64,000 bases of DNA, from positions 930,001 through 994,000 of the forward strand of contig NZ_JABMKV010000001.1 in the NCBI RefSeq assembly GCF_013204825.1. Direction: 5' to 3'. This stretch comes from Pedobacter boryungensis. GTDB lineage: Bacteria > Bacteroidota > Bacteroidia > Sphingobacteriales > Sphingobacteriaceae. The first letter of the stretch is position 1, and each line of letters opens with the position of its first letter. The position numbers and the translations under genes were made by a program. Under the pieces are notes generated by a model. That model was not told the DNA's origin, ran no database searches, and saw only the letters and a list, made by a program, of their open reading frames with translations. Shown here piece by piece: positions 27,357-59,476 of this stretch.

Positions 27357-27420
27357 TAATTGAGTTGAGAGTTCAAAGTTAAAAGTTTAATAGATAATAG
27401 TAGCACGATTGTTTTTTAAT

Positions 27421-27499
27421 AGCCCCGACAGTAGCGATATCCTTTTTGTAATGCTGAGCTTGTCAAAGCACAAAAAGATTTAACGAAATGGCGGGACTG
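27421..27499. repeat. Intergenic repeat, family with GTAGCGAnATCCTTT core
   Basis: CCCCGACAGTAGCGATATCC on the left and AAAAAGATTTAACGAAATGG followed by CGGGACT on the right form an imperfect inverted repeat around a TGCTGAGCTTGTCAAAGCA loop. Related copies are seen near 40799-40881, 52269-52311 and 10495. No protein is encoded. Confidence 0.55.
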
Positions 27500-27537
27500 A
27501 ACTTAAATTAGTGTAGTGAACTTGCGTTTCAAAATGT

Positions 27538-40741: not shown

Positions 40742-40798
40742 TTTCTTTCTTTAAAATTTGCCACGTTAAATAGTTGTACTGCAAAATTTTAAATAAAC

Positions 40799-40881
40799 GG
40801 GATTGTAGCGAAAATCCTTTGTGTTGTAGATAATCGACAAGGTCAGTACAACAAATACACAAAAAGATTGTAGCAAAAAAG
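40799..40881. repeat. Intergenic repeat copy (CGGGATTGTAGCGA family)
   Basis: CGGGATTGTAGCGAAAATCC and CACAAAAAGATTGTAGCAAA, close to the TTGTACTG/CAGTACAA inner arms, resemble the element at 27421-27499 (shared GTAGCGA-ATCCTTT and CACAAAAAGATT cores). It directly abuts the terminator of the M1 peptidase gene. Confidence 0.5.
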
Positions 40882-40910
40882 CCCGACTAACGTTAATCGG
40901 GCTTCTTTAT
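40874..40910. terminator. Bidirectional hairpin terminator between the queG-linked gene and the M1 peptidase gene
   Basis: AAGCCCGACTAACGTTAATC followed by GGGCTT pairs as AAGCCCGA/TCGGGCTT around the loop CTAACGTTAA. T-rich tracts lie on both sides, so it can serve both converging genes. Confidence 0.85.
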
Positions 40911-56765: not shown

Positions 56766-57881
56766 ATGAAACCAGAAACTGCCGCCATCCATGCGTTAAA
56801 TTTAGTAAAAAGTGCCACAGGCGATGTGACAATGCCTATTAGCTTATCTACCACTTTTTTACGTGATGAAGAGGGTGGTTATCCAGGTGGATATATGTAT
56901 AGTCGGATGAATAATCCTAACAGAGCCGCTTTAGAAAATGTAATTACAACATTAGAATTCGGTGCTGATACTTGTGTTTTTTCATCTGGTAATACCGCAG
57001 GAATGTCTGTTTTTCAGGCCTTAAAACCTGGTAGCCATATTATTGCACCTGATGACATGTACTGGGGGCTAAAAAAACAGTTATTAAGTATTTTTAACGA
57101 AACCTTAACCTTCGATTTCATTAATTTAATTGATATCGATAAAGTAGAAAGTTTCATTAAACCAAATACAGTGTTGATTTGGGCAGAAACTCCTTCAAAT
57201 CCACTCTTAAAAATTACAGATATTAATGCTCTTGCAAAGATTTGTAAACACCACAAACTCATTTTAGCAGTTGATAGTACCTTTGCATCTCCAACTTTAC
57301 AAAACCCAATTAAACTAGGTGCAGATATCGTAATGCATTCTACAACAAAATATATTGGTGGTCATAGCGATGTGTTAGGAGGCTCTTTAACTACTGCTAC
57401 AAAAAACGAATTTTGGGATAGAATTAAAAATATACAACAAAACGGTGGTGCAGTTCCTTCTCCATTTGATTGTTTTTTACTACTTAGAAGTATTAAAACT
57501 TTAGCTTACAGGGTAAAAGGCCATTGTGAAAACGCAATGAAATTAGCTCAATATTTAGAAAGTCATCCAAAAGTAGAAACGGTATATTATCCGGGTTTAG
57601 CTTCTCATCCACAACATGACATCGCAAAGAAACAAATGAAAGATTTTGGCGGAATGTTATCTGTATTGGTTAAGGGTGATGCAATAGCTGCCAAAAAAGT
57701 TGTAAACACAGTGAAGATATTTGCTCAAGCTACTAGTTTGGGTGGTGTAGAAAGCTTAGTGGAGCATCGTGCTTCTGTTGAGGGACCTGATACTAAAACT
57801 CCACAAAATTTAATTCGGGTTTCGGTTGGATTAGAACATATTGACGATTTGATTGCAGATTTTGAGCAAGCATTAGGTTAA
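56766..57881 (+). CDS. metB: Trans-sulfuration PLP enzyme, cystathionine gamma-synthase or sulfhydrylase type
   Basis: PLP-dependent enzyme of the Cys/Met metabolism family, acting on an activated homoserine ester with cysteine or sulfide. Visible: YMYSRMNNPNRAALENVITT, FSSGNTAGMSVFQALKPGSH, VLIWAETPSNPLLKITDINA, the PLP-lysine segment DIVMHSTTKYIGGHSDVLGG and the C-terminal SLGGVESLVEHRASVEGPD with NLIRVSVGLEHIDDLI. At 371 residues it fits MetB/MetC/MetZ. With metX (homoserine O-acetyltransferase) just downstream, its substrate is probably O-acetylhomoserine. Sequence alone does not separate MetB from MetC or a sulfhydrylase. Confidence 0.85.
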   Translation: MKPETAAIHALNLVKSATGDVTMPISLSTTFLRDEEGGYPGGYMYSRMNNPNRAALENVITTLEFGADTCVFSSGNTAGMSVFQALKPGSHIIAPDDMYWGLKKQLLSIFNETLTFDFINLIDIDKVESFIKPNTVLIWAETPSNPLLKITDINALAKICKHHKLILAVDSTFASPTLQNPIKLGADIVMHSTTKYIGGHSDVLGGSLTTATKNEFWDRIKNIQQNGGAVPSPFDCFLLLRSIKTLAYRVKGHCENAMKLAQYLESHPKVETVYYPGLASHPQHDIAKKQMKDFGGMLSVLVKGDAIAAKKVVNTVKIFAQATSLGGVESLVEHRASVEGPDTKTPQNLIRVSVGLEHIDDLIADFEQALG

Positions 57882-57969
57882 TAACTAATAAGTAATAAAA
57901 CTATTAGTCCTCACAAATCAATTTTATTGAACTAATTTTCAGATAGTTAATTATTAATCAAAATTTTAT

Positions 57970-58001
57970 TTTGCATATTTTACAATACAATCCTATATTT
58001 G
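57970..58001 (+). promoter_or_regulatory. Promoter of the SAM-riboswitch/metX operon
   Basis: TTTG (57970-57973), a 20-base spacer and TATATTTG (57994-58001) match the Bacteroidota -33/-7 promoter exactly. Transcription would start near 58007, about 45 bases before the riboswitch. Confidence 0.7.
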
Positions 58002-58052
58002 AAATATTATTTGGTGAAAGCTAAATAAAAAATCAAATCTTTAATCGGTTTG

Positions 58053-58163
58053 ATTTATAAAGAAGTGGCGAGAGACAGGCTCTTTGACCCACTGGCAACC
58101 CTCCCTAACGGAGAAGGTGCCAATTCCTGACCAGCCAACATGGTGTTGTTTGGAAATATAAAT
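58053..58163 (+). ncRNA. SAM riboswitch (S-box/SAM-I class)
   Basis: The aptamer begins with P1 strand ATTTATA (58053-58059), which pairs with TATAAAT (58157-58163). P2 is AGTGG/CCACT (58064-58068 with 58089-58093), followed by the conserved GGCAACC, P3 (CTCC/GGAG) and the SAM-I core GGTGCCAATTCCTGACC. It lies before metX and hom, whose products make homoserine esters for methionine, so high SAM should lower expression. A SAM-IV-like subclass cannot be excluded. No terminator is seen directly after it; the P1 3' strand ends 7 bases before a small ORF. Confidence 0.88.
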
Positions 58164-58170
58164 TAAGAAG

Positions 58171-58305
58171 ATGAAAACAGTTAATTTAATTTCGTTAAGC
58201 GAAAATCTTAAGTCAAGCCCCAAACGGTCAATTGCGTTTTTAAATGTAAATCTGATTTGTTGTAACATGCACTTAATGAACTGTATGTGCTGTCGCATAT
58301 ACTAG
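58171..58305 (+). CDS. Cys/Met-rich 44-residue leader ORF between SAM riboswitch and metX
   Basis: Complete ORF, ATG at 58171 to TAG at 58303-58305, preceded by the purine-rich AAGAAG. The first half is ordinary (MKTVNLISLSENLKSSPKRS), the C-terminal half is extreme: residues 30-41 read CCNMHLMNCMCC, with five Cys and three Met in twelve, in the leader of sulfur amino-acid genes. Expected as a leader peptide whose translation reports Cys/Met-tRNA supply, or as a small metal- or thiol-active peptide under riboswitch control. No known family recalled. The ORF and composition are seen directly; the function is inferred. Confidence 0.6.
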   Translation: MKTVNLISLSENLKSSPKRSIAFLNVNLICCNMHLMNCMCCRIY

Positions 58306-58307
58306 TT
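58279..58307 (+). promoter_or_regulatory. Hairpin over the Cys/Met codons and stop of the leader ORF
   Basis: TATGTG/CGCATA with a CTGT loop, plus AACT/AGTT below an interior loop, gives about 10 pairs that overlap the last codons and the TAG of the leader ORF. A ribosome paused on the Cys/Met run would open it. Pairing was judged by eye. Confidence 0.35.
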
Positions 58308-58345
58308 AAAAAATCTTCCACTTTGTTATTATTCAATCCGGAAGG

Positions 58346-58361
58346 TCTCGAGAAATCGAGA
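58346..58361 (+). other. Small hairpin with GAAA loop upstream of metX
   Basis: TCTCGA, GAAA and TCGAGA form a perfect 6-bp stem with a stable tetraloop, 57 bases before the metX ATG. No T-tract follows, so it is not an ordinary terminator. Confidence 0.4.
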
Positions 58362-58417
58362 TACGCTGTTACCTATTATCAACTCCACATTACATTAAAA
58401 AGAAGAATTAGTACATC

Positions 58418-59476
58418 ATGAGCACAGTAGCTATCTATAAACACCCTAAAATATTCAAACTAGAAAACGGCAAAAAGTTGCGCAATCTCGAAATTGCTTA
58501 TCAAACATTTGGAAAACTAAATGCCAATAAAGACAATGTAGTTTGGGCTTGTCATGCCTTAACTGCCAATGCAGATGTATTAGATTGGTGGAAAGGATTG
58601 TTTGGAAATAATGCTTTATTTAATCCCGAAGAACATTTTATTGTTTGTGCTAACATTTTAGGCTCAAATTATGGAACTACAAATCCTTTAAGTAAAAATC
58701 CAACAACTGGTCAACCTTACTATTTATCTTTCCCAGAATTTACGATTAAAGATTTAGCCGCTACCCACAATTTATTAGCTAATCATTTAGAAATAAGTAC
58801 AATCAAAGTTTTAATTGGAGGATCTTTAGGTGGTCAACAAGCTTTAGAATGGTCGTTAGCTAAAACACAAACGATAGAAAATTTAATTTTAGTGGCTACA
58901 AATGCAGTTCATTCTCCATGGGGAATTGCTTTTAACGAAAGTCAACGTTTAGCGATTAGTGCCGATCGGACATTTTACTCAAATCAGCCAGATGGTGGGT
59001 TAAAAGGTTTAAAAGTTGCTCGTAGTATAGCCTTATTATCTTATCGTACTTACGAAGCGTATTCGGCAACGCAACTGGAAAGTGTAAACGATAAAATAAC
59101 AGGTTACAGAGCAGCATCTTACCAAAATTATCAGGGAGAGAAATTATGTAAACGTTTTAATGCCTACAGCTATTGGTATCTAAGCAAGGCTATGGACAGT
59201 CATAATGTTGGACGAGGAAGAAAAAGCATTACTGCAGCGCTAGCAGAAATTAAAGTAAATACATTAGTGATTGGTATTGAAAATGACGTGCTCTTCCCTA
59301 TTAGTGAACAAAAGTTTTTAGCTAGCCATATTAATGAAGCCCAATTTAGCAGTATTAATTGCGCTTATGGACATGATGGGTTTTTAATAGAAACTGATAA
59401 ACTAACAAATATAATAGGGAATTTCTTAAAAGAAAGTAGCGATAAAAAAATAATCAAATTACATAAAACAGCCTAG
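58418..59476 (+). CDS. metX: Homoserine O-acetyltransferase
   Basis: Alpha/beta hydrolase-fold enzyme that acetylates homoserine with acetyl-CoA, the entry to methionine from homoserine. Family features: NLEIAYQTFGKLNANKDNVV, CANILGSNYGTTNPLSKNPT, VLIGGSLGGQQALEWSLAKT (nucleophile elbow with catalytic Ser) and YGHDGFLIETDKLTNIIGNF with the catalytic His; the Asp is in VLVIG-like ENDVLFP. At 352 residues it is standard MetX. Expression is downstream of the SAM riboswitch and the Cys/Met-rich ORF; homoserine dehydrogenase follows. Confidence 0.94.
   Translation: MSTVAIYKHPKIFKLENGKKLRNLEIAYQTFGKLNANKDNVVWACHALTANADVLDWWKGLFGNNALFNPEEHFIVCANILGSNYGTTNPLSKNPTTGQPYYLSFPEFTIKDLAATHNLLANHLEISTIKVLIGGSLGGQQALEWSLAKTQTIENLILVATNAVHSPWGIAFNESQRLAISADRTFYSNQPDGGLKGLKVARSIALLSYRTYEAYSATQLESVNDKITGYRAASYQNYQGEKLCKRFNAYSYWYLSKAMDSHNVGRGRKSITAALAEIKVNTLVIGIENDVLFPISEQKFLASHINEAQFSSINCAYGHDGFLIETDKLTNIIGNFLKESSDKKIIKLHKTA

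Follow-up and report, generated by a model that had tools for sequence, protein, structure and literature searches.

A recurrent leader peptide with a tail rich in cysteine and methionine is encoded behind SAM-I riboswitches of Pedobacter and related bacteria. The observation was first made on one leader, in the first-pass annotation of the 64,000-nucleotide stretch of Pedobacter boryungensis DNA that is referred to here as the window; it is confirmed, and holds more widely than was first noted. Riboswitches and leader-peptide attenuators are both known kinds of regulator, and what is notable here is that the two stand in series. On balance, we favour the interpretation that the leader is a two-input RNA regulator, in which a single ribosome would respond to SAM at initiation and to the charging of Cys and Met tRNAs at elongation. 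This interpretation rests on the conserved anatomy of the leader, the in-frame ORF, the enrichment of Cys and Met, the RNA stems and the position of P1 relative to the AUG; from these we infer the effect of SAM, ribosome stalling, the involvement of Rho and the direction of regulation. The parts of the window leader are as follows.

57970..58001, forward strand: putative promoter of the Bacteroidota type, with TTTG at 57970 and TATATTTG at 57994-58001, read by eye
58030..58056, forward strand: anti-P1 hairpin, 58030-58039 pairing with 58047-58056, kept in the Pedobacter alignment
58052..58164, forward strand: SAM-I riboswitch aptamer (RF00162), P1 being formed by 58052-58059 with 58157-58164
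58171..58305, forward strand: leader peptide ORF of 44 codons, ATG at 58171, Cys/Met tail at codons 30-41
58282..58301, forward strand: hairpin Pa (TGTATG / CATATA), within the tail codons and ending just 5' of the stop codon
58315..58344, forward strand: stem Pb, CTTCC (58315-58319) with GGAAG (58340-58344)
58346..58366, forward strand: stem Pc, TCTCGA (58346-58351) with TCGAGA (58356-58361), and the conserved tail TACGC (58362-58366)
58367..58417, forward strand: C-rich, G-poor stretch 5' of metX, recognised by composition, possibly a Rho loading region
58418..59476, forward strand: metX-type homoserine O-acetyltransferase gene, the first main gene of the leader

The aptamer scores 77 bits on RF00162, where the gathering threshold is 44.4, and covers model positions 1-108 of 108, so that by score it is a full member of the SAM-I (S box) family, the type named in the first-pass annotation. 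The ORF of 44 codons also stands, although the gap that separates it from the aptamer is six bases and not seven. Its peptide, MKTVNLISLSENLKSSPKRSIAFLNVNLICCNMHLMNCMCCRIY, ends in ICCNMHLMNCMCCRIY, and the five Cys and three Met that had been read at residues 30-41 are exact in the translation. Between the stop codon and the metX ATG at 58418 there are 112 bases, where about 110 had been estimated. The name metX for 58418..59476 is our assumption, taken from the first reading and from known motifs; among its 80 best-matching relatives, identity is 74-94%, 74 of the 80 carry the genus name Pedobacter, and the nearest of them is that of P. planticolens (94%). Directly upstream of the leader, on the same strand, lies a gene (56766-57881) which, judging from its sequence, is presumably cystathionine synthase/lyase-like; the leader is thus flanked on both sides by sulfur genes. 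A second SAM-I aptamer in the same genome precedes metH (L002), in a leader without a comparable ORF. A terminator scan of 57880-58450 found no intrinsic terminator in the window leader, in keeping with the earlier remark that none follows the riboswitch, and no structure sequestering the start codon was seen. As for the promoter that had been claimed, a Bacteroidota-type motif is legible by eye (the consensus is TAnnTTTG in the accessible text of PMC9723704), but a sigma-70 scan of the window leader gave four matches against 2.9 expected, which is the level of chance.

A peptide search of 145 genomes of the genus returned full-length, stop-free relatives of the ORF in dozens of them. They are found 3' of a GGCAAC SAM-I core, with 72-163 nt separating them from the next long ORF downstream, which is metY or metX where it was read; metY is the gene behind the leader in most of the Pedobacter relatives looked at, and metX in the window. 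At 62 Pedobacter loci with both a recognised SAM core and the RNA element that follows the ORF, the ORF is without exception (62/62) free of internal stops and shares its frame with the hairpin codons. The first ATG at 64-89 nt from the aptamer core opens it, the actual start points being 69-81 nt behind that core, and ATG and hairpin lie 15 different distances apart, each of them a whole number of codons. The stop codon falls 21 nt after the start of the hairpin at 57 of the 62 loci, 27 nt after it at three and 18 nt after it at two. An ORF that was absent or frameshifted in relatives had been named in the first-pass annotation as the outcome that would count against it; instead, as in leader-peptide attenuators, a short, translated-looking ORF is kept in frame across relatives. 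That this is a chance ORF lying over a conserved RNA is scarcely credible: part of the conservation is indeed RNA structure, but chance would have to account for an open frame at 62 of 62 loci and 15 distances, for Cys codons 5' of the hairpin that are frame-specific in Pedobacter, and for Met codons that are frame-specific in other genera.

The body of the ORF behaves differently from its end. The ORF encodes 25-49 amino acids in Pedobacter and 16-54 when all loci are taken together, and a metX tree of 72 loci requires no fewer than 24 changes of its length; these loci are a selected set in that the script required an ORF ending near the element. The script found the leader at 73 of 80 metX-relative loci; of the remaining seven, two (L342, L346) lack usable sequence upstream, and the other five have leaders with Cys-holding tails. 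In 13 disjoint pairs, pN/pS of the body is 0.54 in frame versus 0.81 and 0.65 in the other frames, which suggests that the body is nearly free to vary and only weakly constrained; that the in-frame value is as low as 0.54 counts against the favoured interpretation. The ORF thus looks like a leader peptide and not like a protein. A profile of the peptide was run against 395 genomes of the phylum, and among the loci returned none from outside Pedobacter had both a SAM core and a Cys tail; weak matches in genomes of the family outside the genus had E values from 6e-4 to 0.1. The first-pass annotation had offered two interpretations, sensors in series or a small Cys/Met peptide with a job of its own, such as the binding of metal or thiols, with its expression set by the riboswitch. 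The latter would agree with an ORF that appears to be translated and is rich in Cys and Met, but length and sequence vary by clade, the body is nearly unconstrained, the tail alone persists, held at a fixed place relative to the stop, and neither NCBIfam nor Pfam holds a match to the window peptide up to E 10. A working peptide is therefore very improbable. Comparative anatomy favours the series of sensors, with the switch probably acting on the small ORF, as a tail that is kept while the body varies would suggest.

In Pedobacter the ORF ends in C-M-C-C-C-(I/M)-x or a variant thereof, and hairpin Pa (TGTATG ... CATACA) is made up of these same codons, so that part of the conservation of Cys could be conservation of RNA. 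This overlap of the tail with a conserved hairpin lends some weight to an arrangement without amino acid sensing, in which translation of the ORF is under SAM control and a ribosome terminating there does no more than unfold the RNA at its stop codon, or else reinitiate. Which residues make up the tail would then be irrelevant, the Cys and Met codons simply following from the hairpin TGTATGTGC...GCATACA. We consider this unlikely, though it deserves to be taken seriously. Among 40 representatives, Cys codons occupy 53 of 560 positions in the 14 codons 5' of the hairpin when read in frame, versus 23 of 520 in one of the two alternative frames and 21 of 520 in the other; in shuffled sequences the mean is 19.8 and the maximum 35. 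They are found mainly at -8 and -7, where TGT and TGC interchange (26:8 and 27:15); this Cys pair, seven to eight codons 5' of the hairpin, is outside it and frame-specific. Moreover, folding of 21 bases predicts that Pa is lost in L376 and L377 and weakened in L365 and L370, on which the RNA model scores 14-23 bits or gives an off-site match alone. Despite this, the four loci have the tails YMCCCAE, YMCCCLN, CMCCCHN and CMCCCIG, and MCCC is retained in both L376 and L377. Frame-specific Cys, MCCC in the absence of Pa, and the recurrence of such tails elsewhere with unrelated sequences speak for selection acting on the tail codons themselves.

The stop codon is followed in Pedobacter by AAAATCTTCC ... 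GGAAGG-Pc-TACGC. The RNA element behind the ORF was modelled (R1), and a search of 301 genomes of the family with this model matched 68 of the 69 genomes of the genus, once in each; three weak matches fall outside the genus, all without a SAM core. In the 67 model matches, 97.2% of pair cells hold standard pairs, and the covariation score is 0.322 versus 0.170 for shuffled alignments and at most 0.081 for slid partners, in an alignment that was itself fitted to the model. Four of the 67 rows are chance matches (L180, L181, L182 and a second hit in L058); with L035, whose ORF is present and which the locus script missed because of a second GGCAAC motif, they make up the five rows outside the 62 loci. 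When the chance rows are removed (63 rows), 97.6% of 997 cells pair and double changes are seen in seven of 16 pairs. Pc covaries strongly, with double changes in four of five pairs and an outer pair that is U-A in 34 rows and C-G in 28. Pa is paired in 95.2% of cells over the 67 rows and, without the chance rows, shows double changes at two of six pairs, the rest being invariant or changing mostly on one side through G-U. For Pb the figure is 98.8% over the 67 rows; without the chance rows it is near-invariant, with a double change at one of five pairs. The double changes at Pa and Pb, counted at first as covariation, came in part from the four chance rows, and the recount leaves Pc alone strongly covarying. 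The regulatory codons in Pedobacter thus overlap a paired segment, Pa, that shows little covariation. An Rfam 15 scan of 58000-58430, with E up to 10, gave RF00162 and three opposite-strand matches below their gathering scores but no family for the element, so that a known RNA family was rejected. In L322, a MAG contig, the tail NCCCSSIC is kept and the R1 model finds no Pa/Pb/Pc element.

Folding predicts that Pb forms with a probability of 0.92 in the free RNA and 0.77 with a ribosome at the stop codon, Pc with 0.91-0.95, and Pa weakly, with 0.32. A structural switch thrown by a stalled ribosome was sought in the predicted folds of 61 leaders at four ribosome positions and none was clear, because Pb and Pc are predicted to be formed in every ribosome state and Pa only weakly. 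With no intrinsic terminator in the window leader either, neither a terminator/antiterminator pair nor a start-codon sequestering alternative was seen. The stretch that follows the element is 19.7% C and 9.0% G in 61 Pedobacter leaders; a control of 34 SAM-I leaders has 17.8% C and 15.1% G.

On the riboswitch side, the ATAAAT in the 3' strand of P1 ends 7-10 nt 5' of the leader AUG at all of the 61 loci measured, out of 62, a position consistent with the earlier proposal that the switch acts on the small ORF. Upstream of the aptamer is the anti-P1 hairpin, AGTCAA ... TTGATTT, the 3' arm of which shares GATTT with the 5' strand of P1. Across 54 distinct Pedobacter leaders, 90.9% of its cells are paired, versus 18.5-58.8% for slid partners. 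Covariation in this hairpin is weak (0.132 versus 0.079 shuffled), four of its nine pairs being invariant, and double changes occur at two pairs, which is not above shuffles. The layout fits a switch in which the anti-P1 hairpin would correspond to leader on and P1 to leader off. In folding calculations the AUG itself is unpaired with a probability of 0.38 when P1 is imposed versus 0.34 without it, so that its own pairing is unchanged, while the 15 nt 5' of it are unpaired at 0.30 with P1 imposed versus 0.87 with the 3' strand held open. This upstream change was rejected as evidence that the AUG is occluded, being mostly built into the folding constraint. Judging by the position of P1, the AUG of the leader peptide appears to serve as the expression platform, in place of a terminator or the gene's own start.

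A wider set was assembled by adding 100 SAM-I loci, of which 60 come from the family of the window and 40 from other families within its class, chosen by position behind the aptamer and not by homology. Together with the earlier ones, 160 loci were classed by their downstream gene, on the basis of our own residue motifs and not annotation; 32 were classed as 'other', and L214 was dropped since no core was recognised in it. In other genera, unrelated ORFs occupy the same place 5' of metY or metX, with tails such as VVCCMCCCCC (L198), LDGCCCC (L199), CSMRCYMC (L204) and MCMCMQ (L201). Beyond the family of the window, QPCCMCICCPCC (L249, family f8) and MRMRMPMSCFSYMCA (L250, family f4) are found before metY. 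Thus, Cys/Met-tailed leaders recur in the window's own family and, at these two metY loci, in other families of the class.

Tail composition was counted at 35 of 56 metY or metX loci, those of the same class with an ORF of usable length adjoining the aptamer, from which five near-duplicates were dropped to leave 30; the 21 left out had no ORF, a very short or distant one, or belonged to other classes of the phylum. The first-ATG rule was applied also to L304 and L311, in which it selects another frame. In these 30 non-redundant 16-codon tails from outside Pedobacter, Met occurs 57 times versus 7.4 in shuffles and Cys 71 times versus 21.5, Thr being the next residue (z 2.7), whereas the ORF bodies contain four Met and two Cys in 579 residues. 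That Met and Cys should be the two strongly enriched residues is what sensors placed in series would predict. It also tells against the arrangement without amino acid sensing, given that both are enriched in tails as different as VVCCMCCCCC, LDGCCCC and that of L249. Met is frame-specific, with 57 in frame versus seven and four in the other frames. Cys is not: the in-frame count is 71 of 480, frame +1 has 61 of 450, and frame +2 has 14. The high count in frame +1 is explained in part by ATG codons with T or C after them, since shifting the reading by one base turns these into Cys codons. Outside Pedobacter, poly-Cys tails are nevertheless in frame.

The near-invariance of the Met one codon into the Pedobacter hairpin (39 of 40 representatives), and the recurrence of RMR, RMC or CMC near the stop in several genera, would also be expected of an arrest peptide, in which a nascent C-terminal (C/R)-M-(C/R) motif stalls the ribosome in response to SAM, cysteine, a metal or the redox state. 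TnaC, which stalls the ribosome in response to tryptophan, is the model for such a mechanism. Here, however, tails differ strongly by clade, from poly-Cys to CMCCC and RMRMHTHFPAC, and codon-based sensing is better suited to such differences than is a single binding motif; we judge an arrest peptide improbable.

The presence of such ORFs depends on the class of the downstream gene. An ORF with at least three Cys or Met among its last eight residues is found at 14 of 41 metY loci, three of 15 metX loci, 12 of 20 TonB-receptor loci, one of six metB-like loci and two of the 32 others, and at none of 16 metH, 18 iscS-like, five hom or seven TlpA-like loci. The zeros for metH and iscS-like genes say little about residues, because those leaders are short (median 152 nt for metH versus 301 nt for metY) and offered few ORFs for examination (none for metH and six for iscS-like genes, versus 57 for metY). 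The contrast between classes therefore means that such ORFs are tied to certain genes, and not that the residues differ. TonB-receptor leaders have their own ORF farther down, 141-188 nt after the core in the qualifying ones, with ends such as MKKTDELKSIAANLNACFRMRMPC or ...SSLCCCCCC; at this distance P1 cannot directly cover the AUG. Those of L007, L010, L011, L020, L031 and similar loci, assigned to TonB by motif, have an MKKTDELK...YFRMRMPC ORF about 176-181 nt after the core, with a conserved TTTTAACAGGC...CTAACCATTCC stretch 3' of it, and two further TonB loci, L192 and L279, have poly-Cys tails.

As in leader-peptide attenuators, codons for pathway amino acids cluster near the stop, though with exceptions, to which the lack of frame specificity of Cys outside Pedobacter should be added. 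Outside the Pedobacter set, 37 of 56 metY or metX loci have fewer than two Cys in the last ten residues, and such an ORF is missing from five of the six metY loci in family f4. Thirteen g16 metY loci have RMR (CGAATGCG) at or near the stop of the ORF. Ten of the 13 carry at least one Cys in the roughly eight codons 5' of RMR, adjacent Cys pairs being present in seven, while three (L298, L303, L308) end in RMR with a single Met and no Cys in the tail. The three count against pure cysteine sensing, and the g16 loci as a whole are among the points in favour of a switch-controlled ORF whose tail residues are immaterial. Either the sensed amino acid differs by clade, being Met, Cys or perhaps Arg, or some of these leaders may work otherwise. 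At most g16 RMR loci, TCGTC or TCGTT comes next, with a complementary stretch downstream. Pairing of the tail codons with downstream RNA had at first, by eye, seemed to occur in every genus; as a general rule it was rejected, since five of 26 tails outside Pedobacter pair at p <=0.05 compared with three of 24 control segments. Strong pairing of this kind is seen at L186, L280 and L290. At L186, L187, L189 and L280, a downstream GTGTGTATGC, with a U-rich stretch behind it, matches the tail GCATACACAC or a variant in which pairing is preserved, and in this clade the leader could be an attenuator with a terminator.

On the favoured two-input interpretation, binding of SAM would close P1 and occlude the stretch directly 5' of the leader AUG, whilst in the absence of SAM the upstream anti-P1 hairpin would free the AUG region and allow the leader to be translated. 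The ribosome must then decode the Cys and Met codons that are clustered where the leader ORF ends. Should charged tRNA-Cys or tRNA-Met be in short supply, it would stall over, or just 5' of, the RNA structure at the stop codon, and a ribosome held there would turn metX or metY on, most probably by keeping Rho off the G-poor stretch. That stretch would lie bare in the two off states, when SAM is high and no ribosome enters, or when Cys and Met are plentiful and the ribosome leaves. It is conceivable, though we would put it no higher than a little short of even, that a group of Bacteroidota SAM-I riboswitches has as its output the start codon of a leader peptide coded for Met and Cys, and not that of the gene. 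Such a leader might, to our knowledge, be the first attenuator with methionine codons and the first series of a riboswitch and a codon-sensing leader, a claim of priority that we make only tentatively.

If the two-input interpretation is correct, a single leader RNA gauges the product of a pathway as well as its substrates. It would also show what a SAM-I switch targets in a phylum with little use of Shine-Dalgarno sequences, as is the case for the Bacteroidota. The dozens of natural variants would provide a test bed for the evolution of leader peptides, and ORFs as small as these, for which the protein family collections may hold no matching model, are easily overlooked.

In the classical attenuators of the trp, his and thr operons, a leader peptide with codons for the amino acid of the pathway is encoded within an RNA stem. 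The present leaders differ in that no terminator/antiterminator pair was found, a riboswitch is added, and two amino acids are involved, one of them Met. Cys-rich attenuators of mycobacteria are reportedly leaderless, to go by the title of a 2020 study by Canestrari; in the window, by contrast, the ATG comes behind the aptamer, about 170 nt downstream of the putative promoter. Polycysteine attenuators of mycobacteria are also cited in the accessible text of PMC9094748. In Actinobacteria, leader peptides with runs of Cys precede cys operons and cbs, and, according to the accessible part of PMC1262725, have no conserved terminator, Rho having been proposed to act. The leaders described here resemble them in being short ORFs that precede genes for sulfur amino acids and have Cys codons close to their stop: the run is CMCC in the window, and CCCCC or CCCCCC in L198, L192 and L279. 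They differ in that Met is enriched too, the phylum is another, a structured element overlaps the tail, and a SAM-I aptamer abuts the AUG, whereas that part of the Actinobacterial account mentions no riboswitch.

The nearest precedent for an ORF under riboswitch control comes from the B12 riboswitches of M. tuberculosis (metE, ppe2), where a translated uORF modulates the main gene and, in one case, termination-reinitiation is described (abstract of PMC11260477). This lends some support to control through the ORF irrespective of its tail residues, although the riboswitch is of another class and the abstract describes no amino acid-coded tail. The mgtCBR leader of Salmonella likewise combines tandem control elements and short ORFs in one leader (PMC3641672, as far as its accessible text goes), its signals and genes being different. 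Within the Bacteroidota, attenuation by leader peptides has been suspected 5' of amino acid operons in Flavobacterium psychrophilum (PMC9723704), 5' UTRs of B. thetaiotaomicron have been noted to contain sORFs that recall leader peptides (PMC7366714), and Bacteroid-trp (RF01692) is listed in PMC2864571, each in the accessible portion of the source. No report of a SAM riboswitch combined with a Cys/Met leader peptide was found in the literature searched, which covered few subscription papers and is no proof of novelty.

Two minor observations may be added. In family f9, a 15-codon ORF, MRRAGMGCCCCCWLA, lies 109 nt after the SAM-I core of L255. The window also contains two Flavo-1 RNAs (RF01705), at 27417-27502 and 40791-40892, both above the gathering score.
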